From Torymus aiolomorphi (taxonomy: Eukaryota > Arthropoda > Insecta > Hymenoptera > Torymidae): DNA of 64,000 nucleotides. The stretch spans positions 192,812,604 to 192,876,603 of the forward strand of contig CM070873.1 of the NCBI GenBank assembly GCA_036365515.1, in the 5' to 3' direction. Both the position numbers and the translations under genes were made by a program. The notes under the pieces are model-generated. The model saw only the letters and a program-made list of their open reading frames with translations, ran no database searches and was not told the DNA's origin. Shown one piece after another: positions 3,193 through 45,534 of the stretch (its first letter is position 1; every line of letters starts with the position of its first letter).

Positions 3193-4221
3193 TCATTTTA
3201 TATTTAACAATTCTCTGAATTTAACAAACTTATCTTTACATAATGCTTTCGTGAATACATCGGCTATATTATTTTCTGAGTCGATTTTTACAATTTGAAT
3301 CTCTTTGTTTTTAACGCCCTCGTGTACATAATGGTAATGAATCTCAATGTGTTTTGAATTTTTCGTAAAGTTTCCAAAGTTCGCTATATTTATCGCACCT
3401 GAATTATCTTCATAAATCTTTATTGGTTTTTCAATATCCAAGTCAAACGTTTTTAATAATTCTTTTAGATATTTCAATTCGCTTACTATTTCAGATAACG
3501 CAACGTACTCTGCATATGTTGAAGCCTTCGTTATACATTTTTGTTTTCGCGATTTCCAATCAATTACATTCCTAAAAACTCGAATTACATAACCTGATGT
3601 AGACTTCCTATCAACATTGTCTCCAGCCCAATCTGCGTCTACATAGCCATCAATTATTTCACAATTTTTATTTCTCTTATATCGTAAACTTAATTTTTTC
3701 GTTAAATACAAATACTTCAAAATTCGTAATGCATATTTCCAATGTGTCTCGGTGTAACAATTTTGGAATCTACTTAAGTAATTTACGCTATGACTAATGT
3801 CTGGTCGAGTGCCAGAACTAACATATAATAATGCGCCAATTAAATTCCTATATTTTATATTTGGTTCGAACTCTTTGGAATTTTCAATTTTTAAATTTGT
3901 CTCCATCGGAGTGCTATATAACTTACTATCTTTTATGTGAAATTTAGTTGCTAGTGACTCAATATATTTTTCTTGACTTAATTCCATCTTACCATTTATA
4001 TAATCATGCTTTACGTTTATGCCTAGATACTCATTTATTTCACCTAAATCTTTCATTTTGAAACGATCAGATAACAATTTCTTTATTCTTTGTATTTTCT
4101 TTTCATCTTTTCCACAAATCAACAAATCGTCTACGTATATTAATAGGTAAACAATGTCTTTGTCTTTTCCATGTATATATAGGCATAATTCTACATTGCT
4201 CTTTCTAAAGCCAAGTTTCAT
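3193..4221 (-). pseudogene. copia C-terminal RT and RNase H
   Basis: Begins just past the frameshift and carries the catalytic YVDDLLICG box early on, the copia motif DLGEINEYLGI, then RNase H: DADWAGDNVDRKSTSGYV, AEYVALSE, and YEDNSGAINIA followed by SKHIEIHYHYVHEG. It ends at the usual place for a copia polyprotein, about 40 bases before the 3' LTR. Apart from being cut off from the N-terminal RT this segment is open. Confidence 0.92.
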
Positions 4222-5744
4222 AACATATTCATCAAAGCATTCATACCAGTCTTTCTCTTTCTCTTCTTCTCAGGACTTTCTCTCAATCCATACAACGCTT
4301 TTGACAATTTATACACTCGTTCGGTTCCATCTTCATAACCTTTTGGTTGATTGACATATACCTCCGTAGTTACCTTTCCATTTAAGAATGCTGTCTCTAC
4401 ATCCATTTGTTCTATTTTGAGCCCATTTTGGCAGCAATATGAAAATAAAATTTTTAACGTTTGATTTTTCGCAACTGGGGAATATATGTCATCAATTACA
4501 TCTGTTTGTTGAAAACCTCTCACAACTAGCCTAGCTTTGTACCTATTATCTGATTTTCTTGTGTAAACCCATTTTACATCTATAACTTTTTTATTTTGTA
4601 CTCTATCGACTAATTCCCAAGTTTTATTTTTATTTATGCATTCGATTTCTTTATTCATGGCTTCTTGCCAATTTTTGCTCTCTTTACTATTCATCGCCTC
4701 CTCAAATGTACAAGGCGTATCTACTCTACAGTATCTTACATAAATATTATAGCTTTCCTTTTCTGGATATCTTACAGGACTTTTCCTATCACGCGTAGAT
4801 TTTCGCGGAACTTTCAATGTTGCGTTTTCTGTATCTTTACATTTCCCCGAAGGTTGATGTAACGATAAATTATTCTTTTCTTTTACTTTACCTTGTTGCT
4901 CTTCGGATTCATTCGCGTTTTCAAAGACATTATCCGATAAATCATCGTTTGTACTTGCATCACTTTCTGTACTATCATCGTTATCAATATTATCTTTATA
5001 ATCAATACCAATGCATTTAACATCTCTTTCTATAATATCCACATGCTTTACAACAATTATTTTATTATTTATAAGTACTCTATAGCCTACATCACTATAA
5101 CCTAACAATATTCCCATTTCAGCTTTTTGATCCCATTTAGACAATCTTTTTTGTTCCGGTTTTCTTACAAAAACTTTACTCCCGTACAAACGTAAATGTT
5201 CGACATTTGGTCTCTTTCTAAAAAATATTTCATAAGGTGTTTTTCTTTCAATCGTATTTGCTAACGTACGATTTTTCAAATACGTCGCGGCACATATTAT
5301 TTCTGGCCAGTAGCATTTATGTACTTTTGCCTCTGATAGTAAACATCGCGCTTTATCCATGATCGTTCTATTAAATCTTTCAGCTGTGCCGTTTAATTCG
5401 TGCACATACGTCGGACAATTATTAATAATAATACCCTTTTCTTTGGCAAATTTATAAAACCGATTATTTAAGTATTCTTTCACATTATCACATCTCAATA
5501 TTTTTATTCTTTTTCCGGTTAAATTTTCAGTTTTATTTACAAATTGAAATAAACAATCAAAAACTTCCTTTTTAGTCTTTATGCAATAAACTTTAGCTAT
5601 TTTACTATAATCATCAATAAAAGAAACGAAATATTTTTCTCCGCTAAACCCAGTAGTTTTAAAGGGACCGCATACATCCGTATGTATAATTTCTAATATA
5701 TCTTTCGCCTTTGTTCTATTATTAGTAAATGGCAAGTTATGCAT
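4218..5744 (-). pseudogene. copia integrase and N-terminal RT
   Basis: Continuation of the polyprotein in another frame. The integrase core begins at IHTDVCGPF (first catalytic Asp), followed by SFIDDYSK, LRCDNVKEYLN (second Asp) and NGTAERFNRTIMDKAR (catalytic Glu). Then come the typical copia hinge RKRPNVEHLRLYG and the RT N-terminus (KWVYTRKSDNRYKARLV, then MDVETAFLNG with the first RT Asp). The frame breaks near 4218-4260 after KALYGLRESP, upstream of the YVDD box. Separate frames for gag, integrase/RT and RT/RNase H show decay rather than programmed shifting. Confidence 0.9.
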
Positions 5745-5751
5745 CTTATTT

Positions 5752-7199
5752 TCAATACAATAATAATAATGTATTTATAATACAAGTTTTACATTTCATA
5801 AATTCAGATTCAAGTTTATTTGGAACGCCCGTTAATAACTGCTGTTTACATATCGTATCCAAATATCTAAAATTTACGTGACCTAACACTCTATACCATC
5901 TTTCCTTTTGACTCATGTTATTATTCTGTTCGGCACTATTTACACAACTTATATTCCTTGCCAATTTAATTTTCATCTTATATGTATCATTAAATTTAAA
6001 TGCTATTGCAGTTACTTTATTATCACTATCTATAATTTTTGCAACTTTTCCTTTCAAAATTACCATATTCTTATTATTCGTTAATTTTCCAACACTTATT
6101 AAATTAGCATTCATTTCCTTAGCAAAATAAACATTATTAATATTAACTTTATTTTGCTTCCCGAAGGTGACAAAATAAAGAGATAGAGTTCCTATCTTTG
6201 TAGCTTTTATAGCTCTATTATCACCGAGATAAATATTTACCGGTTCTTTTAAACTAATACATTTTTCAAAATAATTTTCGTTATTTATAATATGATCAGA
6301 ACATCCGCTATCGAGTATCCACTCTATCTCGCTCATACCTGACGTCTTTGTTTCGTTTGTGTACGCAGCGTGTGTCGTCGCTATCCATGCGCTCGCACCT
6401 TCGCCGCTCTGTTCGCTCGTGCTGGTTCCTTGTTGTCCATGGAATTTTCCGCGTCCTCTGCCGTAATAGCCTCTTCCGGCTGTGCCTCGGCTGCGACCAC
6501 GTGTCGATCCTCTCCATGAGCTGCCGTTGCTACCTGCTTGTCCTCCATCTTGGCAATCCCGTGCGAAATCACCAGGTTTTCCACACTTATAGCAGTTTCC
6601 CTTTCTTGCAGTAAATACATTCGTACTTCTCTCGTTATGCTCTTTTCGATTCTTCATTTCAGCTAGCTTAATTTTGTTTCTTATGTAATCAGCCGTTTGT
6701 TCTTCTTCTTTCAATCTATCAACCAAATCACCTATATAACTGTATGATTCTGGTAACGTGTTGAGCATATAATTCAATTTTTCTTTTTCGCTTATTTTAG
6801 CACCCGCGCCTTTTAACTCATTTACCGCTTTTTCAAAATCACTGAAAAATGCCTCAGAATCACTATAGTTTCTTAATCTTAATTTCTCCAGTCTATTCCT
6901 GCAGACTATTTGTAACGCCGTCGATTCTTTTAAATACATACTGTCTAGCTTCTTCATAATTTTGTATGCTGTTTCTTCTTCACAAACAAATTCTAATTGT
7001 TTATCTGATATCGCACTATAAATTATATTTATTGCTCTCAAATCATTCTGTTTCCATTCTTCTACTTTGTCTGTTTCACTCTTTTCTCTTTCTATCACAA
7101 TTTCACATTTTTTGAGCTTCATGTACATTTGGATCCTCTTTTCCACATACTGCAGTTTCCGCCTTCGAATACTGGTATTGAAACATCCTTTTTATCCAT
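5752..7199 (-). pseudogene. copia gag, zinc knuckle and protease
   Basis: Gag region of the copia polyprotein. The likely start codon is the ATG at 7199. The frame shifts within the first 20 codons (near 7135-7146), then stays open to 5752. A gag helical region is followed by a CCHC zinc knuckle (CYKCGKPGDFARDC), an RG-rich stretch, then the aspartic protease signature WILDSGCSDHI and the GAG-pre-integrase region. The frame ends in a short AT-rich insertion around 5755-5775. Gag would form the particle and the protease would process it. The knuckle has D where G is usual, otherwise canonical. Confidence 0.88.
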
Positions 7200-11490: not shown

Positions 11491-12083
11491 TAAAGTTGTG
11501 TGTTTTTGAATTTTGAATAAATAAACAGTGTTCTTATTCCTTTAATTTTTTTAATCTCAAAATTACACGTTTCATTTCGATTGTTTCACCTACAAACCCT
11601 AAATAAGTTCAATTCCTTTTTTTTATCTTAAACAAGTATCTAAGGAAATATCCGAATTTTGTCAGTTTGAAACATTTAGTTTTTCTTCGAACTTTGAATA
11701 AATAATTAGTTTCACAATTAATTATTTTCCGAACTACGAATTTCAAGTTTTGATGAATTTTTGATACAGTATTTTGCTAATTTCAGTACTGTACTTTGCA
11801 CTATAAAACTTCCATTAGGGATGGACCTTCAACCCGCCAGGCGATCAATCACATGGAGTTGCAGCTACCGAAATAATAGGCATAGGACCCTCTGCACCTC
11901 GCTCGACACACGCGCCCGCCAACTACAAACCAGGAGCTCGGAGGAGTTTCTCAAATTTTTAGGTAAAATCATTTTTTTTCTTTCTCCCCGTTATTTTGTC
12001 ATGAATCGTCGCAGTATCCAACTAACACGTCAAGGTTATTTCAGTTGAGTTTTTTTTTACTATTCACACTGAAGGCCCCGACG
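11491..12083 (-). repeat. Possible gypsy-type solo LTR, cut by the Transib
   Basis: AT-rich block between the RT fragment and the Transib that does not read as LINE-L. Together with the few bases beyond the Transib (20584-20593) it reads, on the minus strand, TGTTACGTCGGGGCC... to ...CAAAAACACACA, i.e. TG...CA ends like an LTR, with AATAAA motifs. I found no convincing target duplication. Confidence 0.3.
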
Positions 12084-12230
12084 CACAGTGGGCGGAAACG
12101 ATCAAAATTACGCCAGGGTAGTAAATCTAGTCCAAATTAAATAATTTTTTTTTTAAATACTCGTAATTGTATCCGCTTTCTTGTAACACTGCGGAAATCC
12201 ACTTTTTAGGGGTAGAAACAACCCCCACTA
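12084..12230 (+). repeat. Transib left TIR
   Basis: About 140 bp, matching the complement of 20446-20583 with few differences and small indels. The first seven bases, CACAGTG, equal the consensus heptamer of V(D)J recombination signals. Further in are a poly-T run and the shared segment GCGGAAATCCACTTTTTAGG just before the satellite begins. Confidence 0.93.
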
Positions 12231-15200
12231 ACCCTTAAGCTGGCTAACATATCTAGCTCTGGGTAGAGCGAGTTTAATCAACTGCTTTTCTATAAGAAAA
12301 TTAAGATCTCAACCACAGAGAGGCTAGCCCACTTTAACCCTGATATACTTAATCCCCGTAAACCTTACAACCCTTATAAACCACCCCTACTAATCCCCAA
12401 GCAGGCTAACTTACCTAGCTCTGGGTAGAGCGAGTTTAATCAACTGCTTTTCTATAAGAAAATTAAAATCTCAACCATAGATAGGCTAGCCCACTTTAAC
12501 CTTGATATACCTAATCCCCCTAAACTTTACAACCCTTATAAACTACCCCTACTAATCCCCAAACAGGCTAACTTACCTAGCTCTGGGTAGAGCGAGTTTA
12601 ATCAACTGCTTTTCTATAAGAAAATTAAGATCTCAACCACAGATAGGCTAGCCCACTTTAACCCTGATATACCTCATCCCCATAAACCTTACAACCCTTA
12701 TAAACCACCCCTACTAATCCCCAAGCAGGCTAACTTACCTAGCTCTGGGTAGAGCGAGTTTAATCAACTGCTTTTCTATAAGAAAATTAAAATCTCAACC
12801 ATAGATAGGCTAGCCCACTTTAACCTTGATATACCTAATCCCCCTAAACTTTACAAGCCTTATAAACTACCCCTACTAATCCCCAAACAGGCTAACTTAC
12901 CTAGCTCTGGGTAGAGCGAGTTTAATCAACTGCTTTTCTATAAGAAAATTAAGATCTCAACCACAGATAGGCTAGCCCACTTTAACCCTGATATACCTCA
13001 TCCCCCTAAACCTTACAACCCTTATAAACCACCCCTACTAATCCCCAAGCAGGCTAACTTACCTAGCTCTGCGTAGAGCGAGTTTAATCAACTGCTTTTC
13101 TATAAGAAAATTAAGATCTCAACCACAGATAGGCTAGCCCACTTTAACCCTGATATACCTAATCCCCATAAATCTTACAACCCTTATAAACCACCCCTAC
13201 TAATCCCCAAGCAGGCTAACTTACCTAGCTCTGGGTAGAGCGAGTTTAGTCAACTGCTTTTCTATAAGAAAATTAAGATCTCAACCACAGATAGGCTAGC
13301 CCACTTTAACCCTGATATACCTCATCCCCATAAACCTTACAACCCTTATAAACCACCCCTACTAATCCCCAAGCAGGCTAACTTACCTAGCTCTGGGTAG
13401 AGCGAGTTTAATCAACTGCTTTTCTATAAGAAAATTAAAATCTCAACCATAGATAGGCTAGCCCACTTTAACCTTGATATACCTAATCCCCCTAAACTTT
13501 ACAAGCCTTATAAACTACCCCTACTAATCCCCAAACAGGCTAACTTACCTAGCTCTGGGTAGAGCGAGTTTAATCAACTGCTTTTCTATAAGAAAATTAA
13601 GATCTCAACCACAGATAGGCTAGCCCACTTTAACCCTGATATACCTCATCCCCCTAAACCTTACAACCCTTATAAACCACCCCTACTAATCCCCAAGCAG
13701 GCTAACTTACCTAGCTCTGCGTAGAGCGAGTTTAATCAACTGCTTTTCTATAAGAAAATTAAGATCTCAACCACAGATAGGCTAGCCCACTTTAACCCTG
13801 ATATACCTAATCCCCATAAATCTTACAACCCTTATAAACCACCCCTACTAATCCCCAAGCAGGCTAACTTACCTAGCTCTGGGTAGAGCGAGTTTAGTCA
13901 ACTGCTTTTCTATAAGAAAATTAAGATCTCAACCACAGATAGGCTAGCCCACTTTAACCCTGATATACCTAATCCTCATAAATCTTACAACCCTTATAAA
14001 CCACCCCTACTAATCCCCAAGCAGGCTAACTTACCTAGCTCTGGGTAGAGCGAGTTTAGTCAACTGCTTTTCTATAAGAAAATTAAGATCTCAACCACAG
14101 ATAGGCTAGCCCACTTTAACCCTCATATACCTAATCCCCATAAACCTTACAACCCTTATAAACCACCCCTACTAATCCCCAAGCAGGCTAACTTACCTAG
14201 CTCTGGGTAGAGCGAGTTTAATCAACTGCTTTCCTATAAGAAAATTAAGATCTCAACCACAGATAGGCTAGCTCATTTTAACCCTGATATACCTAATCCC
14301 CATAAACCTTACAACCCTTATAAACCACCCCTACTAATCCCCAAACAGGCTAACTTACCTAGCTCTGGGTAGAGCGAGTTTAATCAACTGCTTTTCTATA
14401 AGAAAATTAAGATCTCAACCACAGATAGGCTAGCCCACTTTAACCCTGATATACCTAATTCCCATAAACCTTACCACCCTTATAAACCACCCCTACTAAT
14501 CCCTAAGCAGGCTAACTTACCTAGCTCTGGGTAGAGCGAGTTTAATCAACTGCTTTTCTATAAGAAAATTAAGATCTCAACCACAGATAGGCTAACCCAC
14601 TTTAACCTTGATATACCTAATCCCCGTAAACTTTACAACCCTTATAAACCACCCCTACTAATCCCCAAACAGGCTAACTTACCTAGCTCTGGGTAGAGCG
14701 AGTTTAATCAACTGCTTTTCGATAAGAAAATTAAGATATCAACCACAGATAGGCTAGCCCACTTTAACCCTGATATACCTAATCCCCATAAACCTTACAA
14801 CCCTTATAAACCACCCCTACTAATCCCCAAGCAGGCTAACTTACCTAGCTCTGCGTAGAGCGAGTTTAATCAACTGCTTTTCTATAAGAAAATTAAGATC
14901 TCAACCACAGATAGGCTAGCCCACTTTAACCCTCATATACCTAATCCCCATAAATCTTACAACCCTTATAAACCACCCCTACTAATCCCCAAGCAGGCTA
15001 ACTTACCTAGCTCTGGGTAGAGCGAGTTTAGTCAACTGCTTTTCTATAAGAAAATTAAGATCTCAACCACAGATAGGCTAGCCCACTTTAACCCTGATAT
15101 ACCTAATCCTCATAAATCTTACAACCCTTATAAACCACCCCTACTAATCCCCAAGCAGGCTAACTTACCTAGCTCTGGGTAGAGCGAGTTTAGTCAACTG

Positions 15201-15787
15201 CTTTTCTATAAGAAAATTAAGATCTCAACCACAGATAGGCTAGCCCACTTTAACCCTCATATACCTAATCCCCATAAACCTTACAACCCTTATAAACTAC
15301 CCCTACTAATCCCCAAGCAGGCTAACTTACCTAGCTCTGGGTAGAGCGAGTTTAATCAACTGCTTTTCTATAAGAAAATTAAGATCTCAACCACAGATAG
15401 GCTAGCTCATTTTAACCCTGATATACCTAATCCCCATAAACCTTACAACCCTTATAAACCACCCCTACTAATCCCCAAACAGGCTAACTTACCTAGCTCT
15501 GGGTAGAGCGAGTTTAATCAACTGCTTTTCTATAAGAAAATTAAGATCTCAACCACAGATAGACTAGCCCACTTTAACCCTGATATACCTAATTCCCATA
15601 AACCTTACCACCCTTATAAACCACCCCTACTAATCCCCAAGCAGGCTAACTTACGTAGCTCTGGGTAGAGCGAGTTTAATCAACTGCTTTTCTATAAGAA
15701 AATTAAGATCTCAACAACAGATAGGCTAACCCACTTTAACCCTGATATACCTAATCCCCACATACCCTTACAACCCTTATAAACCAA
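12212..15787 (+). repeat. 162-bp satellite, left array, about 22 copies
   Basis: Head-to-tail repeat with a period of 162 bp, measured between successive GGGTAGAGCG sites (12261, 12423, 12585). Units contain CTAGCTCTGGGTAGAGCGAG (an internal GCTCT/AGAGC hairpin), AATCAACTGCTTTTCTATAAG and CCACCCCTACTAATCCCC. Copies differ by a few substitutions, and variants such as CTCTGCGTAGAG recur at multiples of the unit, showing block duplications. No open reading frame runs through it. Confidence 0.97.
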
Positions 15788-16177
15788 AGTAAAATAGGGG
15801 CAAGTCATACGAAAAAGAGCATTTTCGTGTACATACTATTGCTTGACATCAATATTAGTTTTTCATTTTTTTTTGCGATTTTACATAGGTATCTTCTTAT
15901 TGTAAAATGTATATTTTAATTAAGTAATACAGAAAAGTAGTTCGTTTAGCCATAGAGTTGAATACCATTATGGTTTCCGAAGTGCACCGCGTGGAGTCAC
16001 ACATCACACTTCATTTTTTTTGTTTTTTTTTAATTTTTTTTTAAATTTTTTTATTGTATTTTTAATAATTTTTGTTTTTTTTAATTTTTTTTTTTTTAAT
16101 TTTTTTATTTTTTTATTTTTTTTTTTTATTTGTTGGTTTTGAAAAGGTTGAATTATAATTTTACTGCTTTATGCCAT
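15788..16177. other. Transib interior 3' of transposase, T-rich
   Basis: Starts where the satellite breaks off (..TTATAAACC|AAAGTAAAATAGG). It contains long T runs from 16010 to 16130, on the coding strand an A-rich tail after the transposase stop. No second gene is visible. Confidence 0.6.
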
Positions 16178-18106
16178 TCACAAATTTGAAATTAAAAATT
16201 TTTGCGCTTGTTGACTTAAAGGTTTAATTTTTACCCCATCTTTTATTCTAAGTGAACTGATGACCACATCCGATAATATCATAAGGTGGTGCATTATGTC
16301 TTCGTTAGTTGCTTTTCGATTTACCATTCGGCTGTTTTCTAGATGGATTCTCCGAAAAATCTTATTATTTCCTTCTTGCGGTTCTTCACTTAGCCAACCG
16401 AAAGGGATTTCAAAAGAACTTATTATGTCACTACCATGTATCAGTAGCTTATGCACTGATGGAGGCATTTTATACCATCCATACAATGATATACACATTT
16501 TGTATGTTCCTTCACAATAGTTTTTCATTGCTGCGCAATCAATCATCATGTTGCATGAAATAACCTGTAAAATATTATGAAACCTACTAATTAAATTTTC
16601 ATCTACTCCTATACACTCAGCTACAACCTTTGCATTTTCAAAAAATGTTCTGGCGACATTACCTGTGTTCGTTGTTCCTGCTCCTTGTTTTACGACATCG
16701 ACAGTCAGTGATAATTTGCTTTTTAATAATATCTGTATACTTCTTTTTCTTTCTTCTCTTAAACTTCTCTCTTCTTGTGATAATGCTTGAGGCTTTTTAA
16801 AGTCAGAACTGTATCCGATTTTTAAAAGGTATTCCATGGAACGTATCTTACAGTGCAACCTCGATAGCCCTAATTGATAAAATTCTTGTGAGCATTGGCG
16901 ACTTTTTACGTGATTGAAATCGTTTACAAACTTTGGACCCACTCCGCAAATGTTGCAGGAATTCGTTGCTCTTTGTCCTGTTAGAGAATTACAAACTTTG
17001 CCATCAATCATAGTGCATTTAATATCAAAAGCTACTTTGAATGACAAATCATCGATTTTTATAGAACTTATTTGCACCTTTCTTAATTCACTTGTATAAT
17101 AATCATATAAGCCTTTCACATAATCATCAGTATCTTTTCTGAATTCAAATTTAACTGTCCGACATGTATGAACCGAATTAGGTGTACTATTTGTCCAAAT
17201 AACTCTATCTTTAGCTTTTAATTGAAGTGGTGAAAATGAAACTATAAAAACGGTTGCATCACTTTTCGATTGCGTTTGAACCTCAGGTTCAGCTTCCTCT
17301 AAGTCATCATTTGAAATATTATCGTCACAATTACTATTGGATAAGTCTATAGGTATATTTTCATCATCGTCACTGTTACACATAGAACTTTCATGTGGCC
17401 ACTTTTGCCTTGTAGTTTGCTGCCCGGAAGCACCATCGATTCCCCATTTTCCAATTAGTAATAACGTCTCATTTTCAATTTCTTCCAATAGTCTTCGATC
17501 AAACTGTATCAGTGTTCTCTTTACTGTATGAACTAGCAAAGATATGAAGTCTACTTCAGCTCCAGAGTCATTTACTTTTATACCATCAGGATAACAAAGT
17601 TTCTTTGCTTCGTTAATACTTTCATATGGTAATAATAGTTTATTTCCGCAAATCCTTTCAAGATGAACATTTAAATTTTGATATTTACTTTTAGAAAGTC
17701 TAGCATCTGCATACATCGCTAATGATAGATTATTTGTGTTCTTATGACTCCCAATCTCAGTTTCTCTATTCTGTGCAATCTTTTTTTTAAGCGCTTTGGC
17801 TAATTCTTCAGCACTATACGATGAAGAAAGTTCAGAAATACGTCTTCTTTTCGTAACGTCAGATGCTTCCTCGTAAGACTTTCGCGTACGACCTACATTA
17901 TGCTTGATGGTATCATATGACTGCTTCAATTCTGTCTCAGCTGCTGCAGAGCTTCTCTCGGGACTTTTGAACGTGATTGTAAAATTGTTTTCTAAATAAT
18001 CGCTGTACCGATTAATAAAAGCATCTTTTTTTCGAGAAACATTTTGCCATTGTCTTTTAAAGGTGGCTAAATATGTTTTTATTAATTTTAGTCTGATTTC
18101 TTGCAA
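16178..18106 (-). CDS. Transib transposase, RAG1 core-like, catalytic residues intact
   Basis: 642 residues as delimited. The frame stays open upstream to about 18240, but I see no ATG there, so an upstream exon is likely. Alignment by eye to the RAG1 core gives the full DDE set: D224 in KWGIDGASG (RAG1 D600), D368 in KCTMIDGKVCN (D708) and E578 in SEEPQEGNNKIFRR (E962). The RAG1 zinc ligands also match: C384 and C387 in CNIC, H552 and H557 in SVHKLLIHG, with the same 5-residue His spacing. Other conserved parts are DVVKQGAGTTNTGN (470-483) and LYGWYKMPPS (541-550). No stop or frameshift interrupts it. The enzyme would cut at the CACAGTG ends through hairpin intermediates. An acidic stretch at 245-272 is not part of the core. 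It lies between the two satellite arrays. Activity is not proven. Confidence 0.92.
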   Translation of the reverse strand: MQEIRLKLIKTYLATFKRQWQNVSRKKDAFINRYSDYLENNFTITFKSPERSSAAAETELKQSYDTIKHNVGRTRKSYEEASDVTKRRRISELSSSYSAEELAKALKKKIAQNRETEIGSHKNTNNLSLAMYADARLSKSKYQNLNVHLERICGNKLLLPYESINEAKKLCYPDGIKVNDSGAEVDFISLLVHTVKRTLIQFDRRLLEEIENETLLLIGKWGIDGASGQQTTRQKWPHESSMCNSDDDENIPIDLSNSNCDDNISNDDLEEAEPEVQTQSKSDATVFIVSFSPLQLKAKDRVIWTNSTPNSVHTCRTVKFEFRKDTDDYVKGLYDYYTSELRKVQISSIKIDDLSFKVAFDIKCTMIDGKVCNSLTGQRATNSCNICGVGPKFVNDFNHVKSRQCSQEFYQLGLSRLHCKIRSMEYLLKIGYSSDFKKPQALSQEERSLREERKRSIQILLKSKLSLTVDVVKQGAGTTNTGNVARTFFENAKVVAECIGVDENLISRFHNILQVISCNMMIDCAAMKNYCEGTYKMCISLYGWYKMPPSVHKLLIHGSDIISSFEIPFGWLSEEPQEGNNKIFRRIHLENSRMVNRKATNEDIMHHLMILSDVVISSLRIKDGVKIKPLSQQAQKFLISNL

Positions 18107-19189
18107 TTGTTCTTCAGAAAATGAATTTTTAGATTTAATACTACTGATTATAATTTCTTCTTCACTTACTTTATCATTGTATTTTCTATTAAACAGTAGG
18201 TTACATAGTTCTTCATTTTTTATGGAATAACTCCATGATTAGTAGGTATCAATATCAGTATGGTACTTAAAATAAAGAAATTTATATCAACTAAAACGCG
18301 TTTATCAATGAATACAAATAAAAAATAGCAAATTGGTAAATCTGAATTATTAATTACAGATTGTAAAAAACATAAGAGATTTAAAAAAAATTTATATGAA
18401 AAAAATTCACTACTACTAAAAATTTCGAGAATTAACTAAAGAAAGATTGATGTAATTTTAATATTAGTATGAATGTTCTCGTATTTATTGAAGCATAAAT
18501 AAAAAAGTGGAACTGCAAATACAACTATTGTGTATGTTTAATGAAATAGAAGAATGTGGGATTACAAATGCTCTATTACAATGATGGATTACACGAATTA
18601 CAAACTCGAACTTTTACCTATAGAGAATATTATTAATATCGAAAATTATATTATTATAACTTTTACAATTATAAAAATTTGTATAAGTACATGTAATGCT
18701 TATGCGTAAAAACATAATAACATAATAATTGACAGTTTTAGAATTATTAGGTTTACTTACTCAAGAACTATGTTATATGAATACAGTAAGATCACCAATG
18801 AATGATATTTTAATTTATATTTCACAGATTTAGTATTTAATAACTTACAAGCCTGTAGGGAAATTTTTATAATTTTTTTTTCATTTTCAAATAAAAGCTT
18901 GAAAATATATAATGTTTTATAGTGAGAACTGACAAATTTATAATTCTAGCTGAGTAAATCTCAGGTAAGCAAAAGAAATATTAAAAGTATTACATAAATA
19001 TCCTATTTGCTTTATATAAAAAATGCCTAATATTTGATTTTAAATGCAAGAAACAGTAGATATTTTTCACAAAATAATACTTCATGACAAAGAAACTTCT
19101 GTCAAATCTTTAGTACAGCTTTTTTTCTAATAACATAGTCAAGAAAAAGTTAATTAGAAATTGATGTTTGTGGGTTTGAGAATGACGTA
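18107..19189 (-). other. Transib interior 5' of transposase
   Basis: AT-rich. The first 130 bases continue the open transposase frame without an ATG, which suggests a first exon further upstream that I could not place. The rest shows no coding signal. The promoter of the transposase should lie here. Confidence 0.5.
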
Positions 19190-20452
19190 TATCAGGTTAT
19201 GATTGGTTAGCCTATCTATGGTTGAGATCTTAATTTTCTTATAAAAAAGCAGTTGATTAAACTCGCTCTACCCAGAGCTACGTAAGTTAGCCTGCTTGGG
19301 GATTAGTAGGGGTGGTTTATAAGGGTTGTAAGGTTTATGGGGATTAGGTATATCAGGATTAAAGTGGGTTAGCCTAACTGTGGTTGAGATCTTAATTTTC
19401 TTATAGAAAAGCAGTTGATTAAACTCGCTCTACCCAGAGCTAGGTAAGTTAGCCTGCTTGGGGATTAGTAGGGGTGGTTTATAAGGGTTGTAAGGTTTAT
19501 GGGGATTAGGTATATCAGGGTTAAAGTGGGCTAGTCTATCTGTGGTTGAGATCTTAGTTTTCTTATAGAAAAGCAGTTGATTAAACTCGCTCTACCCAGA
19601 GCTAGGTAAGTTAGCCTGCTTGGGGATTAGTAGGGGTGGTTTATAAGGGTTGTAAGGTTTATGGGGATTAGGTATATCAGGGTTAAAGTGGGCTAGTCTA
19701 TCTGTGGTTGAGATCTTAGTTTTCTTATAGAAAAGCAGTTGATTAAACTCGCTCTACCCAGAGCTAGGTAAGTTAGCCTGCTTGGGGATTAGTAGGGGTG
19801 GTTTATAAGGGTTGTAAGGTTTATGGGGATTAGGTATATCAGGGTTAAAGTGGGCTAGTCTATCTGTGGTTGAGATCTTAATTTTCTTATAGAAAAGCAG
19901 TTGATTAAACTCGCTCTACCCAGAGCTAGGTAAGTTAGCCTGCTTGGGGATTAGTAGGGGTGGTTTATAAGGGTTGTAAGGTTTATGGGGATTAGGTATA
20001 TCAGGGTTAAAGTGGGCTAGTCTATCTGTGGTTGAGATCTTAATTTTCTTATAGAAAAGCAGTTGATTAAACTCGCTCTACCCAGAGCTACGTAAGTTAG
20101 CCTGCTTGGGGATTAGTAGGGGTGGTTTATAAGGGTTGTAAGGTTTATGGGGATTAGGTATATCAGGGTTAAAGTGGGCTAGTCTATCTGTGGTTGAGAT
20201 CTTAATTTTCTTATAGAAAAGCAGTTGATTAAACTCGCTCTACCCAGAGCTAGGTAAGTTAGCCTGCTTGGGGATTAGTAGGGGTGGTTTATAAGGGTTG
20301 TAAGGTATATGGGGATTAGGTATATCAGGGTTAAAGTGGGCTAGCCTATCTGTGGTTGAGATCTTAATTTTCTTATAGAAAAGCAGTTGATTAAACTCGC
20401 TCTACCCAGAGCTAGGTAAGTTAGCCTGCTTGGGGATTAGTAGGGGTGGTTT
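19190..20452 (-). repeat. 162-bp satellite, right array, inverted, about 8 copies
   Basis: The same 162-bp unit in opposite orientation, about 7.8 copies, running up to the right TIR. Units here share diagnostic bases (for example GGCTAGTCTATCTG) that are rare in the left array, so the two arrays have been homogenised separately. Confidence 0.97.
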
Positions 20453-20583
20453 CTGCCCCTAAAAAGTGGATTTCCGCAGTTACAAGAAAGCGGATACAAT
20501 TACGAGTATTTAAAAAAAAAATTATTTAATTTGGACTAGATTTACTGCCCCGCGCGTAAGTTTGATCGTTTCCGCCCACTGTG
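20446..20583 (-). repeat. Transib right TIR
   Basis: Inverted partner of 12084-12230. It ends CCGCCCACTGTG at 20583, followed by the CGACG duplication. The satellite joins it at the same phase of the 162-bp unit as on the left side. Confidence 0.93.
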
Positions 20584-20588
20584 CGACG

Positions 20589-21249: not shown

Positions 21250-22584
21250 ATTCTCGCCAACAATGATAAATGCCAATTTTTAGTTAACCATGCAAATATA
21301 TGTGTTCATATTTTCAATGAATACTAAACGCAAGGAGATGGATAAGTAAAGGTCTTTCAATCATCAATCGTTGCAATTAATAGTAAAGCTTAAACATTTA
21401 TTAACATAAAAATAAAAAGAGGATATCAAAATTAGCGAGGTATAATTAAGTATAATGTTGAGCGCCAGCTGGGACATTCCCAGCATTCCAACTACGATAT
21501 ATTACAATAAACTAATCGCGACACGACAATGATTCGGCTGTTTCGATATGGAGCGGAACGCGAATTCAAGCGCAAACTCGTGAGTGTAGTCTCCGGCGGC
21601 GATAGTTTCGGTACGGTTTCGAGAAGAAGCGCGGTGAGATCCGAGTATGCGGCACGAGAGAGAGACGCAAAGAAGCGATGATCGCTGCCAATACAACTTA
21701 CCACCTCGGAGCTGGGACGAGCGGCGTACACGACGATAAGCTGATGGTCGCAGAGGTTGAGTGGCTGGGCAGCGGCGGTTAGGCGCCCGGACGCACGCCG
21801 GTTCGACGTAGGCGGCACGACGTCGGCAAGCGGCCGCTGGGCTGAGCTCGGCGGTGGCGGTGAGACGCTCGGGCGCACTCCGGTTCGACGCAGGCGGCCC
21901 GACATTGGCAAGCGGCTGCTGGACCACGCTCGCCGTGGATGGCTAGGGTGACGGCACACAGCACTGAACGAAGCGGCGGGGCTCGAAGTTCACGAAGGCT
22001 GGACGCCCGAACAAAACTTCGCGTCTACTTAGAATCTCGACACACAAAAGGCGAAAGCAAGGCACTATAGCGCGTACTGCGGTCCACAATGGAGTGACCG
22101 AGCGCAGCACGCCGACAGACCAATGAGCTCTCCAGGCCCAGCGATCGAGCGCCACCACTCGTTCTTCTTCGCGTACTATTCTCTCTCCCTCTATCTCTCT
22201 CGCTCTCTCCTGAAAATATAGGACCGCGGCGCTCATGCTGGTGTTGATCTGTGCGTCTGCGCACGGTACTTCGTCACAAGACGATTTTCCCCGCGAAGGT
22301 TCGAATCCAACAACGACGGAGGAAAACTGTTAGGTCAGGTCCACTTGGAGGCTGGCGCCTCCACATGTCAGAGAGAAAGCAACTGAGAGGAAGGCAGATA
22401 CGGCAAGCTCGAATATGTAGTGCCATTAGTACTTGCGGGAATGGCAGGAACATCGACTTCTTCATCTGGATCAGGGTACGAGTGCAGCACTAGGAGCGCG
22501 CAATGCTCCTTTACAAGAGTAATGTCTTTGTCTTAGGTCTAGTGTTTTTTTATCTCATTGTAAGGCTCAAAAGTGAGCGTTACA
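21250..22584 (-). repeat. gypsy 3' LTR (left copy, 1.3 kb)
   Basis: Shares its start (ATTCTCGCCAACAATGAT) and end (AGTGAGCGTTACA) with 51254-52347. Longer than the right copy by about 240 bp, because the GC-rich middle (about 21845-22105) holds an extra segment, partly a tandem duplication of the ACGCCGGTTCGAC region. On the element strand the LTR begins TGTAACGCTCAC. Confidence 0.85.
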
Positions 22585-24489: not shown

Positions 24490-26388
24490 ACCAAGGAACA
24501 TTCTTGTTAAGAAGTTCGTTTAAGGGGGCTTTAATTCAGACAAATCTTGGATAAACCCAGCATACCAATTTACCCTACCCAAAAAATTTCTTAATTGTTT
24601 CCGATTTTTAGGGGTTGCGAAGTTCCGAATTGGTTGTTCTGTATCCCCATCCCTTTTTAACCTCTCTCTATTTGTAACGAAGCCTATATGTCGAATTTCG
24701 GCACAGCACAAACTGCAATTGTCCTAATCAACCTGCAACCCTACTTCTTTCACTCTCGCGAGGACCTTCTTTAACAACCCTAAGTGTTGTTCAAAAGTAT
24801 CGGTGGCGATAATGATATCGTCCATGTATACAAAGACTTTCGGGTGCTAATTTGGATCGATTATTTTATTCATTGCCCTTTGAAAGCTCGCTCGGGCATT
24901 TATTAGTCCGTCGGGAAGACGCGTGAATTGAAAGAGACCTTTGCTTGGTATTGCAAACGCTGTAAACTCTTTACTAGATTGCTCTAAAGGGATTCGATTA
25001 TAAGCTTGTCTTAAATCGATTTTCGACCGATAGCTCGTGTTTTCTAAATTGACCGGAAGGCTATCTACGTGGGATAGGGGGTATGCATCTTTCTTTGTTA
25101 CTTTTTTCAGTGGACGATAATTAATGCAAAGCCGAGTGGTGCCATCTACTTTAGGTACGATGACGGCACAACTACTCCACGAACTTTGTGAGGGCTCGAT
25201 CATACTCTCTGCCAACAATTGATCTACTTCTGCATGAGCAGCTACTAACGGCGTTGGCGAAACATGTTTAGCTTTCTGTTTTATTGGTGGATGACCCTGT
25301 ACGTCAATTTTATGAGACGTAATCCGTGCAGCCTCTATTTTTCCACTGTGAGTATCGAGAAGTGGGTCTACTCCGACCCGTAAGAGGATTCTTTCCCCCT
25401 GGAGAAGCTCAGCAACACTGTCGATGGTTGCTACTGCTAGGACTGTATTAGGGTCCTGATTTTTAGGATAGCAGGGGTGAACGATATCTTTTGGAGTGTA
25501 CCAAGTTCGATCTACGAAATTAATTCGCATTTGCAGGCGCTCCATAAGGTCCATTCCTAATATAACGTCATAGTTAAGAGAATTCGACACCCTAATGCGA
25601 GTGGTGACTTCATCTCCGTCAATCGTGAATGTTAATTCTACCTCGCCTAATATTTTCTCCGTTTGGCCGTTTGCCAGGACCATGTAGGTTGAACAGGGTG
25701 TTATTCTAGATTTGACTAATTCATCTGGCTTTGGATCTAAGAACGAGGCTATGGCTCCACTATCGAGCAATGCTGGAAAGGCTCGACCATGAATTTCGAT
25801 ACTAACATAGAGGCGATTATCAACATGTCCTATTGCTGCCGTTTGACACGGTGGCGTTGATGTAAAACATGTTTTGGCTGAATTTTTCTCCGATTGAATC
25901 GGAGCTCCTACTGAGGATAACGCGCAACTGTTCGACGATGATGAATTTTGTTTCTTATCCCCTTCTGCCGTCCCCTTGGTTGCGCTGTTGTAGTTTGGAC
26001 ACGTTGCGACAACAACTCCTGGGTGTCCGCACCTGCAGCATAGAATCCCTTGCCTTTCTTTGCAGCCTCTCGCCCAGTGTCCTTGCTTCTGGCATACCCA
26101 GCATTTGTCCTCTACTGTGTTATTTTTCTGTGCAGTTTGACTGGTCGACGGACTATTGTTCGATGGCGCTGGTTGGCGTGCTTTCGTCGGCACATTCTTA
26201 CTTCCCTGCGCCTTGGTGGTTGGCTGGTCTCGTTTCGCTCTTGGGATTGTGCTATTTGAGAGCGTGACATTGCCTCGTTGTCGTTTCGATACAGGGTAGT
26301 CCTTGGAAACTTCGTTCACATCGGCCATATTTTGTTCAACTTCGACTTCAGTTGTATTTATGACCGCTGCTTTCGTACGCTTTTTCAT
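24490..26388 (-). pseudogene. gypsy pol: zinc knuckles, protease, reverse transcriptase
   Basis: N-terminal CCHC knuckle CWVCQKQGHWARGC plus a second, degenerate one (CCRCGHPGVVVATC). Then the retropepsin motif FPALLDSGAIASF, and RT: EPSQSSWSSCAVIVPKVDG, LCINYRPLKKVTKKDAYP, SKIDLRQAYNRIPL and FTRLPDGLINARASFQ. The frame stops at 24847, just before the catalytic YMDD box, which is present in the continuing frame (VYMDDIIIATDT). A second in-frame stop follows near 24730, then HIGFVTNRERLKRD and the LRNFLGRVNWYAGFI thumb region, and the frame is lost by about 24490. Gypsy order (protease before RT) is clear. Not functional. Confidence 0.88.
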
Positions 26389-26996
26389 TTTGTATGCAAA
26401 ATTCGAAAAGAGCGACGATTCGGGAGGTGGTGGGGACGATAAGTTTTTTCTTTTTCTCGCCTCACCTCCTCTCTTTGTCCCAAGATCTGCAGTTCTTTAA
26501 ACGTTTTGAACTGGTCCCTAAATGTAAAACGATAAAGCGAAGAGTGCAAGTTTCGATACGCCCTTCTGAGCTGGGTCTCCAAGATCATTTTCGGTACTAC
26601 TTTATCTAACAACAATCTCAAATTAGAAATAAAAGATGAAATTGGTTCGTCTGGCCCTTGAGTCCTCGATCTAATTTCTTCTTCCAGACGAGCTTGGAAA
26701 TCATGGACACCGTATTGCAAACGAAGAGCTGCAAAAAAGTCGGTTGTGGATCTCCAGTTTTGACTCAATGGCCTAGCCCAAAAACGGGCTGCACCAGACA
26801 AAATCGACGGAATCAATTTCAAAATTTCACTATATGTGACACTCAACGAGTACTGGCACTCTTTAATTCTTTCTATGAATTCCTCGACGTCTTCTTTATA
26901 CTCTCCAGAGAAACTCACCTGCCACTTCTGTAATAGAGTGCATGTTCGAGTTTCTCTCTGGAATGTGGTATCAAAATTCGAAGAACGTCTTGACAT
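26385..26996 (-). pseudogene. gypsy gag core
   Basis: Retrotransposon gag domain: WQVSFSGEYKEDVEEFIERI near the start, then ILSGAARFWARPLSQNW, FFAALRLQYG and a C-terminal helical part, ending a few bases inside the start of the knuckle frame (26385/26388 overlap). The N-terminal stretch (27300-26997) continues in the same frame with Tyr/Pro-rich sequence but is interrupted by a stop near 27120. Forms the particle shell in related elements. Confidence 0.8.
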
Positions 26997-27349
26997 ATCT
27001 ACTATTGAGGGTTGCGAAAATGAGGTATACCTAGGGTCATTTTGCGCCGAGCTGCGATAATCAAATGGAAGAGCGTGTTGGCCATATGCTGGCCCGTATG
27101 CCGTCGGAGGATATTATCCGTAAGGTGGATACATAGGCGAATATGGCCAATGATGACCACTATTAGGGAGATAAAAACCCATACTACCATCAAATCCCTG
27201 GAGGGGGCCCTGCCCTGCGAGCGACGATCTCGCATTTTCCTCCCAAGGCTGTGGAGGGTTATGTCTCCTCGCACCTTCCATACCTGACGGATTTTGCTGA
27301 TTTATAGCCGCCTGAGGATTTTCTATTCTACTCGACGGAAATTGGCTTG

Positions 27350-28369
27350 CTACTCTGATTGGGTATTAGATTCCCCGATTGACCGGAGCAATAACCCAGG
27401 CAGCTGAAGATTAGCTTCTCTGCGTAAATTCGTTTCTATCCGAGAAGGATACGACGACTGACTAGTTTCGATACGCGAAGTCCTGTTTAGGTTAATCAAA
27501 GGTTCCGATTCTACCAGACGGTGGTTTTCGAAATGTACACGAGCAGTGTTGGATTGGGAGGTTACCGGTGGTGACATGTGGAATGTTTCGATAGAGGGAG
27601 GCAATGGTTGAGGTTGAGGATGTGTTTCGATAAGTTGAGATATGTACTGGTTTTGAGAAAGGTACTGTGGGTAAGGTATCAATCCACCAGGAAGGTTTGG
27701 ATGGGTAGAGGAAATATGGCTATTGTTTGATGGAGTGTACATCATGGATTGTGCCCTCGGTAGATCATACAAATGCTGACTATTCGAATTTCTACTATCT
27801 GGGACTTTTGGTCTGGCCCCATGCGGATGCTGTGTGGCACCAGTGCTCATCACTGTCATCAGCTGGCTGGGTTTGGAGGAGAGCCCAGTATAAATTGATT
27901 CATACATCCTAGGGGCATAATGGGTCGATACTATGCCAGAAGCTATGTCACTATTTGCAACCGTTTTCATATTCGTGGCAACAGTGGCCAATTGGGACGA
28001 TTGATCCATTATTTTCTTCACTGTTGAGTTGGATGCTGGATCTCCCCCCTCCAGGACCTCTCCAACTCCGCTTCCGGTAGTCACGTCCATGAAAGTTTCA
28101 TCATGTTCTAGTCCCATCGCTAGAGATCCCCTCGAAGGATCGTTATCCTCTATAATATTCCAGGAAGCTGCTCTAGCCCCAAATGTTCGACGCAAGTCAA
28201 ATCTCACTAAACGATCGATTAGTTCCGGCATACTTCCTTCTCTACTCAACGGACTACTCTTCAGCGCCTGGAACATTTTTTCTCGACTATAAGATTGGAA
28301 AACCGGTTCTAAGCGATCCCTCTCGGTAGCTATCTCCGGCTGATTATCTCTCTCGGCATTCGAAGCCAT
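27350..28369 (-). CDS. gypsy gag N-terminal region with SAP-like fold
   Basis: 339 residues from an ATG at 28369. Residues about 25-60 (SREKMFQALKSSPL, MPELIDRLVRFD) look like a SAP or helix-extension-helix nucleic-acid-binding motif, then a low-complexity Ser/Pro/Gln/His-rich region to the end. In insect gypsy elements such a segment precedes the gag core and is usually one frame with it. Here a stop at 27350 and another near 27120 separate them. Several TTTCGATA sites (27466, 27586, 27625) fall inside this coding part. Confidence 0.55.
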   Translation of the reverse strand: MASNAERDNQPEIATERDRLEPVFQSYSREKMFQALKSSPLSREGSMPELIDRLVRFDLRRTFGARAASWNIIEDNDPSRGSLAMGLEHDETFMDVTTGSGVGEVLEGGDPASNSTVKKIMDQSSQLATVATNMKTVANSDIASGIVSTHYAPRMYESIYTGLSSKPSQLMTVMSTGATQHPHGARPKVPDSRNSNSQHLYDLPRAQSMMYTPSNNSHISSTHPNLPGGLIPYPQYLSQNQYISQLIETHPQPQPLPPSIETFHMSPPVTSQSNTARVHFENHRLVESEPLINLNRTSRIETSQSSYPSRIETNLRREANLQLPGLLLRSIGESNTQSE

Positions 28370-30647
28370 CGCGACTGCAATAAATAACTACTTAATTTTT
28401 ATTCCTAACGAAGACGAATAAAATAATAACGAGTCTTATTATTTAGGGGTGAAACGGATTTCACCCTCCGCTTACGTAGGCGCAAATTCTCAGGAAGCCG
28501 TTTGGCTTATTTTCTCGGGATGCCAACTAAGACTCTCGTAAATTCGAGAAATGAGGAAGAAAAAAAAAACAAAATAAATGCTGACCAATGAAAAGCAGAA
28601 AAGCAGAAAGAAGAATACAAAAAGAAGAAAAGATCTTAACCAAGTACTGCTGTATTCTGTTATTTAAGAGCAACAAGCGCAAAAAAAAACAATGCAGTTG
28701 AAATAAAACCACCTCAAGAGCAAAAGAAAAATCAAACGAGTAAGAAAATTAAGCAATCAAAAAAAAATAATTTCCTGGTGTGCTGAGGCAAATCCGTTTA
28801 ATAACAAAGCAACCCAAACAATATCTTTATTACTGATCATGTGCCTCCTCAACAACAACCAAGTTACTACAATGATAAAAAAAACTATTAATTACAACTA
28901 CTAAGTGCACTCCATGTGCGCAGTACGCTAAAGAAAATTATCGTCACTTACTTTTCTTATTCTACCAACAATAACGAAAAAAAAAAACGAATAGTTTCGC
29001 TACTCACTTCGCTATATGCTAAAATAATTTAAAACGCTACTAACTACTTTAAAATAAATTGTAATTTCGCAATAGCGAAATTACACCAAAAAAAAAAATT
29101 CAAGTCGAAAGCCAACAAAAACAAGAAAAATCAAGTCAACCGCCGAGTTTAAATTTTACCCGAACACCAAACTAAAATTCAAATCAAAAGCCAAATTTAA
29201 ACTCGAACTGAAAACAAAAAAAAATTCGAACCGACCGCCAAATGGAAAGCCAGCTACGCGACTTACTATATCAAGCATGAAAGCAGAAAATGTTTTGCAA
29301 TACGGATGTAACTATATTACACACTAAAACTCTAGAAAAGGTACAACTAAGCTATAAGGTGAGAAAATGCTAAATGGTTTTGGTTCCGACCGACAAGGGG
29401 GGGTAACTTCCGATTTAAACAGAATATTCACTGGCAATGGTAATTTTAAAATAGTATTACAACCGCTTTCAATATAATATTCAATGACAACTATAATATC
29501 AATATGCTATCTGAAAGTAATCACCGCTTAAATACTGTTTCCAATAATAATTAGAATTTTAAAATTTCGAAAAATGAGACTTAGTAAATAATAGTCTGTT
29601 AAAAATATTATTCAGACACCGAAAAACCGTATATTTTTTTATTTTTTTTTTTTTTTTTTTACTGCAATAGTTTCGAAATTGTTTATTTAAACAATAGTGA
29701 TTTTAATATAAATTTAAAAATAATAATCTTTTAAATAGTTCATAAGAAAAACAACAATAATGTAGGTATGATATTCCAAAATGATAGTTTATCATGCTCT
29801 TAATCAAATGAAAAACAATTTCAACATACTATTTAAAAATAATAATATTCAGAATATATTATTCGACAGAAATAAAATTTTGAGACTTCGTATTTAAGCG
29901 TGATAGTATTTCGAATAATGCTACTCGGTAACTACTTACAATAGCTATAGATGAGAACGTGTCTCGCGCACAAGGTCTCACTGTATGTAAACAAACCGAG
30001 TTTCGTATACGTGCGTTGTTTGTGTACGTTTCGACAGTCGAATAATTATTTTCGACTACTATGCGACTACTTTAATTAATTCAAAATTTTTACTTTAAGA
30101 AATATAATTTATTTTCCTCTATTAAAAAGCAATAATTCCCCTATTGTGCATAAACCCCGACACTTAGTTGCGCTTTGTTTCAAACAAAAAAAAAACAATT
30201 TTGTTTCAATTATGGTGCCGATAATTAGAAGCCACAGATATCGCATAAATGAGAAAGTTTTTCCCAAGCGCAGAAATAGGTGTTTCGATAGTGTGAGAGT
30301 GCATTTATCGGGTGATTAATATGTTAATGAAAAGCATATGTAAAAAGAATAAGCAAGCAGATGTGAATAAAAACAGATATATATGGAAAAAAAAAATATA
30401 TTTTCAAATAATATGGTATATAAATAATTGAAATAAATAATTACATTGAAAGGAAATAATTAAATTGATAATGCTATTTCGTGCAAAATTGCGCTGCGTT
30501 CTATGTCAATTACAACAGCATGTTTCGGTACTATAATTGTGAGAGCGTGCAATAATGAAATTTTCGAAATCTACTAATTTTCTACCAATTATTCAATTGT
30601 AGTTAATAAAGTATTATTTGACAGTTTTCTTTTCAACAAGATTTTTC
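28370..30647. other. gypsy leader, AT-rich, no gene seen
   Basis: On the element strand this is the 5' untranslated leader between the Polinton insertion point and gag. Strongly A/T-rich with runs such as the T stretch at 29637-29660. It has a TTTCGATA copy at 30283 and one at 30644 that ends in the Polinton target duplication. No open frame of interest. Confidence 0.6.
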
Positions 30648-38300: not shown

Positions 38301-39351
38301 GAGATGGGTAGTGCACGAATTACAGAAAGCAATCGAATTGGGCTACAGCGTGACTGAGATATTTGTCATATGGCAATATAAGAGCACGCAGTATGACCAG
38401 TGCAGCGGCGAGGGTGGGTTGTTTGCCGCGTACGTAAATACCTTCCATCGGTTGAAACAACAAGCGAGCGGGTGGCCGTCTTGGTGTACGGACGATACTA
38501 CCAAGGAGCGTTATATTGACGAGTACGAGCGCGAAGAAGGAATAAGGTTAGACCGGGAAAAGATTGAAAAAAATTCGGGTTTACGTTCGGTCGCAAAACT
38601 CTGCTTAAATTCATTTTGGGGAAAGTTTGGGTAACGGTCGAATTTAAAACAAACGAAAGTGGTCAAAACGCGCGAGGGGATGCTGAAACTGCTCACGACG
38701 CCTGAAAAGGAAGTTTTCGACGTGCTATCGGTTAGCGAGGATCTTTTGTACGCAAATTGGCGCTATAAAGAGGACACTGTAGAGTCGTCGCCGAACAAAA
38801 ATGTGGAACTAGCAGCCTACACCACCGAGCAGGCGCGTCTCGAGATTTACTCGTATATAGAAAAGCTTTCGGCCAGCCACGTTCTCTACCTGGATACCGA
38901 TTCGTGTATATTCAAGTGCAGCGAAAAAGACCCTTCAGAGTATAGACCTCCTTTAGGCACCCTTCTCGGCAGCTTGACGGACGAGCTCAAGGGCTACGGA
39001 GAGGGAGCTTATATTACCAGCTTTCTCTCCGGGGGTCCGAAATTTTATGCCTTTCGTGCGCTCGTCCCATCGACCGGCATCACTCACGAGTGCTGTAAAG
39101 TAAAGGGAATTTCTCTTAATAGCGCCAATACGAGCAAGATCAATTTCGCTAGTATCGAGCGCTTGATCGCAGAGTATTTGGATAACGACGACGAGAGCTC
39201 GCCTATCGTTTTGAAATACAATGCGATCAGACGCACTTGCACGCACGAGGTTGTTACGCGCAGCGAAAAAAAATCCTGTTCCATAGTTCTGAGAAAGCGA
39301 AGACATTTCCAACACGACGTTTCGCTTCCTTTCGGCTATAAGCGCAATTGA

Positions 39352-39882
39352 ATAATTGTATATTTTAATGCGATAAATGTTGTAACTTTTGTATATTTTT
39401 CATAATAATAAAAAATGTATTGTAGATATGTAAACTTTTTTTTACGTGTTAATTATTTTCCACCCATATCCCCTCATCCCATATACCTATTCATAGCGGT
39501 AATCAGCTAACCCGCGTGCGCGCGCCGCGGAGATCAACGGAACAATGCGTTAAACACGCAGCGATGGTTGCTTATATCCGCGAAAGTCACCTGATCAACG
39601 CGGTAAATATACTTATCCGCGCGCGCGCGGGCTGGAGTATGCTAATGACTGCGGAAGTCACCACCGCGGTGATATGGTGATCTTCGCGCGCGCGCGCCCG
39701 CCGCCCCGCCACCGCCGCCGCCGCCCCGCCACCGCCGCCGCCGCCGCGGGGATCGTAAATATCGTAACATTGCTATATGCGGAGATGTTTTCCACGTACT
39801 TCATCGTCAGCTGAGCGCGTGAGCGAGTTAAGGGTTTAAAAAAGGCTGCACGCGTGTAATTTTCTTTATTCGAGTCGTAAAC
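39352..39882. other. Polinton spacer before the structural gene block
   Basis: Holds the polymerase 3' end (AATAAT/AATAAA-rich, 39360-39420), then alternating GC runs (39612, 39686) and a CCG triplet repeat (39700-39745). TTTAAAAAA near 39834 is a TATA-like element about 50 bases before the ATPase ATG. No gene. Confidence 0.5.
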
Positions 39883-40966: not shown

Positions 40967-40967
40967 G

Positions 40968-41530: not shown

Positions 41531-41707
41531 TTAATAATCCAACAGTTTTAAAAATTGGCCAAATATTGACGGATCCTCAGCGCTCGGCCAAACGTCGCCT
41601 ATCCACACCTATACAGCACGAATCACCCCAGCCATCTATACAGACTCGCAGTAAAAAACAAGCGAAAAAAAGTGGCTCACGCTTGGTTTGTAAAATAAAA
41701 AAAAAAA

Positions 41708-42796: not shown

Positions 42797-42801
42797 AAAA
42801 A

Positions 42802-43605: not shown

Positions 43606-43606
43606 G

Positions 43607-44101: not shown

Positions 44102-44103
44102 AA

Positions 44104-45439: not shown

Positions 45440-45534
45440 TCGTTAAAAAGGTGGGGGGACGAGGACTCGAGAGGACGTGGGCGGCGCCCTCAAGCCTCAC
45501 TCTTCTCCCGGCGCTCGCTACGCACACACGTATA

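Follow-up and report, generated by a model that had tools for sequence, protein, structure and literature searches.

A Transib element of Torymus aiolomorphi with tandem arrays in both arms and a probably disabled transposase gene

Introduction

The locus considered here lies in a 64,000-nucleotide stretch of contig CM070873.1 of the hymenopteran Torymus aiolomorphi (assembly GCA_036365515.1, positions 192,812,604 to 192,876,603, forward strand); this whole stretch is called the window, and positions below are those of the window. An original prediction, made from the letters alone, placed a complete and possibly active Transib element, with a RAG1-type transposase gene, at 12084–20583. The questions raised by this locus are whether the element is intact, and what occupies the remainder of its 8,500 bases. 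In our view the element is very probably a cut-and-paste Transib that inserted with duplication of CGACG, the gene of which is broken just after its start codon, and the arms of which hold arrays of a 162-base repeat that are variable in length and particular to its own family. These inverted arrays, which make up 4,837 of the 8,500 bases (57%), are the main feature of the element and had been missed by the prediction.

Ends, insertion site and transposase

The limits of the element (12084–20583, with the transposase gene on the minus strand) are defined by exact inverted ends, by the transposase and by empty sites among paralogues of the left flank. The sequence CACAGTGGGCGG has two exact occurrences in the window, at 12084–12095 on the plus strand and at 20572–20583 on the minus strand, both pointing inward, and no others when up to one mismatch is allowed; two matches were obtained in none of 100 shuffles. 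When the two ends are aligned with each other, the unique outer part of the inverted repeat extends over 12084–12215 on the left (plus strand, beginning CACAGTG) and 20453–20583 on the right (minus strand), and a manual count over about 132 columns gives three substitutions and three gap columns. The ends fit CAC(A/G)(A/G)TG, which we take to be the start motif of Transib inverted ends. They had also been likened to recombination signal sequences (RSSs), a term that is valid for the heptamer only, as we found no nonamer above chance at the element ends and no 12/23 asymmetry between them, the ends being alike on both sides.

The predicted duplication, CGACG, directly flanks the element at 12079–12083 and 20584–20588. 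It has the five-base, GC-rich form of Transib target duplications and is backed by seven paralogous empty sites. The left flank is part of a dispersed repeat, and a genome search with the joined flanks returned 40 matches (two from the window itself, 16 to the left flank and 22 to the right flank). Twelve of the 16 left-flank matches extend to joined position 155–157, beyond the junction at 150. All seven of the left-flank paralogues that were fetched (7 of the 16 matches) cross the insertion point with the element absent, and they continue into the start of the right flank, reading CGACGTAACA in six cases and CGATGTAACA in one. The right flank, its translation being judged by eye, is a portion of a reverse-transcriptase gene, which explains why the two right-flank paralogues fetched (L040 and L041) begin just past the junction, at joined positions 156 and 161. 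The flank matches therefore place the Transib within about ten bases of the end of a repeat that had earlier inserted into a second one. The search for further copies, which had been proposed as a check alongside that for empty sites, recovered three in the genome, on C3, C4 and C2.

The transposase body occupies 16178–18238 on the minus strand, 686 codons from stop to stop, and includes D268, D412 and E622 together with C428/C431 and H596/H601. In an alignment of 14 sequences D268, D412, C428 and C431 are invariant, and E622, H596 and H601 are at least 90% conserved. All of the predicted catalytic and zinc-binding residues are therefore kept, but the frame is longer than the 642 codons first given and the residue numbers are 44 higher; the acidic residues presumably correspond to D600, D708 and E962 of RAG1, as had been proposed. 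HzTransib of Helicoverpa zea (PDB entry 6PQN, E 4e-83) was the sole solved chain found by single-sequence search, while a profile search of solved chains returned HzTransib at 1e-169 and 16 more chains, all of them RAG1 or RAG1L. Of the acidic residues, only the second and the last are covered by the RAG1 alignments shown, together with the histidines; the first lies outside them. A structure model of the transposase (mean predicted local distance difference test score of 79) has HzTransib (6pqx) as its best fold match, with a template-modelling (TM) score of 0.90 by target length; TM scores against RAG1 and BbRAGL chains are about 0.5–0.7. At least 18 related proteins were found among 7,996 candidates scored, the only named one being from Helicoverpa armigera. 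The element belongs to the Transib superfamily, with a RAG1-related DDE transposase, and on this point the prediction was correct. A Pfam match to Spore_III_AA lay below the cut-off and was disregarded.

The N-terminal part of the protein, of about 165 residues (17731–18238, minus strand), is absent from the solved HzTransib chain. Its residues 1–89 are well predicted in the model, and a profile of the whole part gave no PDB match better than E 0.29. We considered whether this part might be a RAG1 nonamer-binding domain, but this was unsupported: the full profile gives a weak alignment of this part to RAG1 (13.5 bits, independent E value 0.15), and the cut profile of the N-terminal part found no RAG1 chain.

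Inverted arrays of a 162-base repeat

The larger array lies on the 3' side of the gene (12216–15786, plus strand) and consists of 22.0 units of 162 bases, as determined with Tandem Repeats Finder (TRF) and unit-by-unit comparison. Its inverted counterpart on the 5' side (19187–20452, minus strand), identified by TRF and an inverted-repeat search, has 7.8 units. The longest inverted arms measure 1,287 bases and are 96% complementary. Units of the window arrays are only a few bases apart; units 4–6 are the same as units 8–10, and units 11–14 differ from units 18–21 by 0–2 bases each.

Arrays are present in both arms of all four copies of the element, with 3.8–22 units per arm. The unit numbers in the 3' and 5' arms are 22.0 and 7.8 in the window, 5.0 and 3.8 on C3, 6.05 and 6.3 on C4, and 7.1 and 4.8 on C2. 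The fraction beyond whole units is 0.04–0.07 on the 3' side of all four copies and 0.78–0.81 on the 5' side of three, the copy on C4 having an extra part unit. The mean distance between units is 0.040 within arms and 0.039 between the arms of one copy; between copies it is 0.044 when like arms are compared and 0.048 when opposite arms are. With values so nearly equal, homogenisation within copies has been at most slight. The element thus has the foldback-type plan of long inverted ends composed of a variable number of tandem repeats, a term that denotes a descriptive class and not a superfamily.

Two further interpretations of the repeat were rejected. The unit length is a multiple of three, but the longest stop-free run in the array is 53 amino acids, so a coding repeat is not indicated. 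Nor does the unit resemble a copy of a terminal binding site, its similarity to the 132-base end being no better than chance (the scores were reached by 180 and 139 of 200 shuffles). Elsewhere in the genome we note a locus (L048, C3:54909200-54913500) at which an inverted pair of stretches, 73–81% like part of the 162-base unit, are 4 kb apart with two frames of at least 150 codons between them.

Related elements and their arrays

A published account (PMC4411706) describes autonomous Transibs as missing from the majority of animal genomes, or as occurring in one or a few copies, and by that measure the present genome looks rich in them. We found at least 83 transposase matches among the matches listed (65 of 1,037 candidates scored). 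A search with the end pattern, allowing up to three mismatches, gave 110 matches, and a reversed control gave none. The description of such elements as uncommon therefore agrees with the published account but not with this genome, in which another family has four open copies. That family, B, is about 45% identical to the family of the window element (family A) and accounts for 7 of 20 excised loci by tree, four without stops and three with stops; the grouping of loci into families throughout is by this tree, some deep branches of which are poorly supported. The four stop-free copies (L027–L030, on C5, C2, C2 and C1) have 25-base ends agreeing at 24 or 25 positions and matching five-base flanks (CGCCG, AGGCG, TGCCC and CGGCG). 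Each has a 679-codon frame with a start codon, open from start to stop, with 7–12 base differences in 2,040, and each keeps all seven catalytic and zinc positions. In L030 there is a change at the glycine adjoining the first catalytic residue, which is invariant in the 14-sequence alignment. Judged from these features, family B would be the better candidate for activity.

Flanks of five matching bases were found in 9 of the 13 end pairs examined, a count that left out the C2 copy of family A, the ends of which lack their last five bases. All nine are of the form NGNCN, and five of these are CGNCG. Among six short paired elements picked from the end-pattern list, three have matching flanks (CGGCG, CGGCG and GGACG) and three do not.

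Arrays were surveyed with TRF (score of at least 100, at least four copies) in 25 stretches, comprising 15 transposase loci, a longer view of each of six of these loci, and the four family A elements. In the vicinity of the gene, arrays were found in families A and B, L013/L014, L016 and L019, and none were found by TRF in L005, L007/L008 and L017 (L005 and L017 were viewed 1.5 kb on each side). Loci L012–L019 were likewise viewed 1.5 kb on each side, and the arrays of L013/L014, L016 and L019 are shown on the 3' side only. Four families other than A therefore have arrays, all telomere-like with a GGGTTTA-like unit, and three families show none; array-bearing and array-free families are interleaved on the tree. 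In the arms of family B the arrays are about 490–720 bases long and begin 433–449 bases from each end. The similarity score between the 162-base unit and the telomere-like arrays was reached by 7 to 50 of 200 shuffles, depending on the motif. The main array of each family has its C-rich strand inward, with a skew of 0.4 to 0.9; the opposite sign is seen in two small arrays (L013 and its counterpart in L014) and in one weak array in L019. Agreement in sign among five families is not strong, having a two-sided chance of 1 in 16. In L027, the one family B copy examined, the fractions of its two arrays covered by G-quadruplex motifs are 0.49 and 0.83; the 162-base array and the arrays of L013, L014, L016 and L019 have none.

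These observations bear on whether the arrays serve the element. Repeated binding or folding sites that aid transposition or expression have been suggested for Galileo and Tetris, with secondary binding sites proposed for their repeats in the sections available of the two accounts (PMC3573991; PMC4079207). By analogy the present arrays may act likewise, an idea that we think less likely than not. In its favour, both arms of all four copies have at least 3.8 units, and four other Transib families here have arrays with a main block of like strand bias. Set against this are the chance-level similarity of the unit to the 132-base end, the three families in which no array is seen, and the short elements L044–L046, which have related ends and clean five-base duplications yet no TRF array. 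A broader form of the idea, and in our judgement an equally doubtful one, is that a foldback-type plan recurs among the Transibs of this genome, with expandable arrays in five families (162-base units in family A, telomere-like G-rich units in the other four), the C-rich strand of the main array inward and both arms occupied where both were seen; the arrays would then contribute to the setting up of the paired-end complex, to transcription or to the formation of double-stranded RNA.

Integrity of the transposase gene

The conserved start codon is at 18234–18236 (minus strand), where it is out of frame with the body and its own frame stops after seven codons. It is in frame in all three of the other genomic copies, and the break in the window copy is a private single-base length change directly 3' of the start codon. 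The window copy, in which the conserved start codon and the 686-codon body are in different frames, probably cannot make transposase; its transposase is not open from start codon to stop, and the completeness claimed for the element does not extend to a usable gene. The window copy also lacks about 70–80 bases near 18531, upstream of the gene, which the other three have. Those three copies carry internal stops, and two of them have frame-changing length differences as well, which leaves no start-to-stop open copy of the family among the four in this assembly.

Coding DNA differs by 1.6–2.2% among the four copies. In non-coding inner DNA the window, C3 and C2 copies are 1.6–2.0% apart; the C4 copy differs from them by 5.8–6.4%, probably owing to misalignment around a large insert. 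From the coding divergence, recent movement of the family is plausible. To this extent the suggestion of recent activity can be retained, but not for the window copy, which is most likely disabled and could move only with transposase supplied from elsewhere.

The original prediction allowed for a start in an upstream exon, which would leave an intact and possibly active Transib. The open body of 686 codons, the retained catalytic residues and the divergence of only about 2% between copies are in keeping with this idea, but we consider it improbable. Proteins of relatives begin with methionine at the position where the window frame begins, the three other copies start there too, and in the frame of the body a stop codon immediately precedes it. 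The window copy also has a private change, R632H, at a site where at least 90% of the other sequences agree. An upstream exon was accordingly rejected as the source of the start, and there is no need to invoke damage to one.

Interpretation

A rival view is that the arrays derive from a genomic satellite unrelated to the element, which either received the copies as insertions or invaded them. Despite the satellite-like unit length this is very improbable, given that the inverted position is alike in all four copies, the inner-junction phase is alike in seven of eight arms, and 65 of 69 full or part matches to the unit in the whole genome (lower bounds, as the search skips very common words) lie inside the four elements, the other four being weak relatives. 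The arrays would thus appear to belong to the element family and not to a later invasion.

The most consistent reading, and one that we hold with considerable confidence, is that of a Transib with arrays of its own and a broken gene. The element would have inserted near the end of another dispersed repeat, duplicating CGACG. By homology with HzTransib and RAG1, the transposase would pair the two CACAGTG ends, cut and re-insert the element. On either side an array separates the gene from the unique outer end, of about 132 bases, and the arrays of different copies differ by whole units, presumably through unequal exchange, slippage or conversion. The reading frame of the window copy would have been lost directly after its start codon.

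Several observations weigh against this reading. An error of assembly might account for the frame break, and translation from an in-frame internal start, at residue 175, would give a protein of about HzTransib length, so that some product is possible. Private codon changes in the window copy are 7 synonymous to 11 non-synonymous, whereas the other three copies pooled have 6 to 35 and five stops in addition; this gives a weak hint that the window copy was under longer constraint (Fisher p of 0.08 without the stops and 0.04 with them). Furthermore, the copies do not form a clean series of simple insertions. The C3 copy has flanks CTTCG and CGGCT, with no matching duplication, and the C2 copy (L025 and L026, C2:178106500-178124500) is missing the last five bases of either end. 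Outside both of these ends lies one 246-base sequence, inverted and of 98.8% identity, which might reflect copying of one end onto the other.

Other features of the window

A T-rich tract lies 3' of the gene at 16014–16131 (TRF). Outside the element, the plus strand at 36581–46688 holds a Polinton/Maverick-like gene set with Pfam domains of a type B DNA polymerase and an integrase; three more frames tested there had no Pfam match. Pieces of a copia-type retrotransposon (gag, RVT_2) are found at 3193–7191 on the minus strand, and a piece like a long terminal repeat retrotransposon at 24847–28387, also on the minus strand, has protease and reverse transcriptase domains in 24847–26496 and no Pfam match in 27350–28387. 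A 708-codon frame with RVT_1 at 56149–59084 (plus strand) marks a probable non-LTR retrotransposon. Positions 21250–21862 and 51253–51863 are two copies of a repeat, 92.7% identical.

Comparison with known systems

HzTransib (PDB entries 6PQN–6PR5) resembles the window element in its transposase over profile positions 167–663, in fold, in its inverted ends and in its five-base duplication. It is given as 3,518 bases with a deduced protein of 489 amino acids, in contrast to 8,500 bases here, and the available portion of its description mentions long inverted repeats but no arrays (PMC1852546). RAG1 and ProtoRAG have in common with the window element the catalytic core and the CACAGTG heptamer; the window element differs in its ends, which are alike and show no nonamer above chance, and in having no second frame of at least 130 codons within it (a split RAG2-like gene was not searched for).

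The closest parallels to the arrays are in Drosophila. Galileo, as far as the accessible sections of its description go (PMC3573991), has similarly long inverted ends with internal tandem repeats that vary in number, these being about 210 bases long in two or three copies in one D. mojavensis subfamily; its copies without matching duplications are read as chimeras, and the C3 copy here is similar. Unlike the window element, Galileo has a transposase of another superfamily (P) and seven-base duplications. The foldback element Tetris of Drosophila virilis, in the part of its account at hand (PMC4079207), likewise has an outer domain and tandem repeats of about 220 bases in its inverted ends, and its unit number varies between alleles as it does between copies here. 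It differs in having no known transposase of its own and in repeats that also form long satellite arrays away from element ends, of which we saw none for the 162-base unit. Our searches of open-licence PubMed Central papers brought up no description of such arrays in a Transib.

The present element indicates that the end architecture of Galileo and Tetris can also be acquired by Transib, the family from which the V(D)J recombinase descends, here with 22 units in one arm. A single genome with array-bearing families, families in which no array was seen and the open copies of family B offers a natural comparison set, both for the effect of subterminal arrays on a RAG1-type transposase and for the origin of new satellites.

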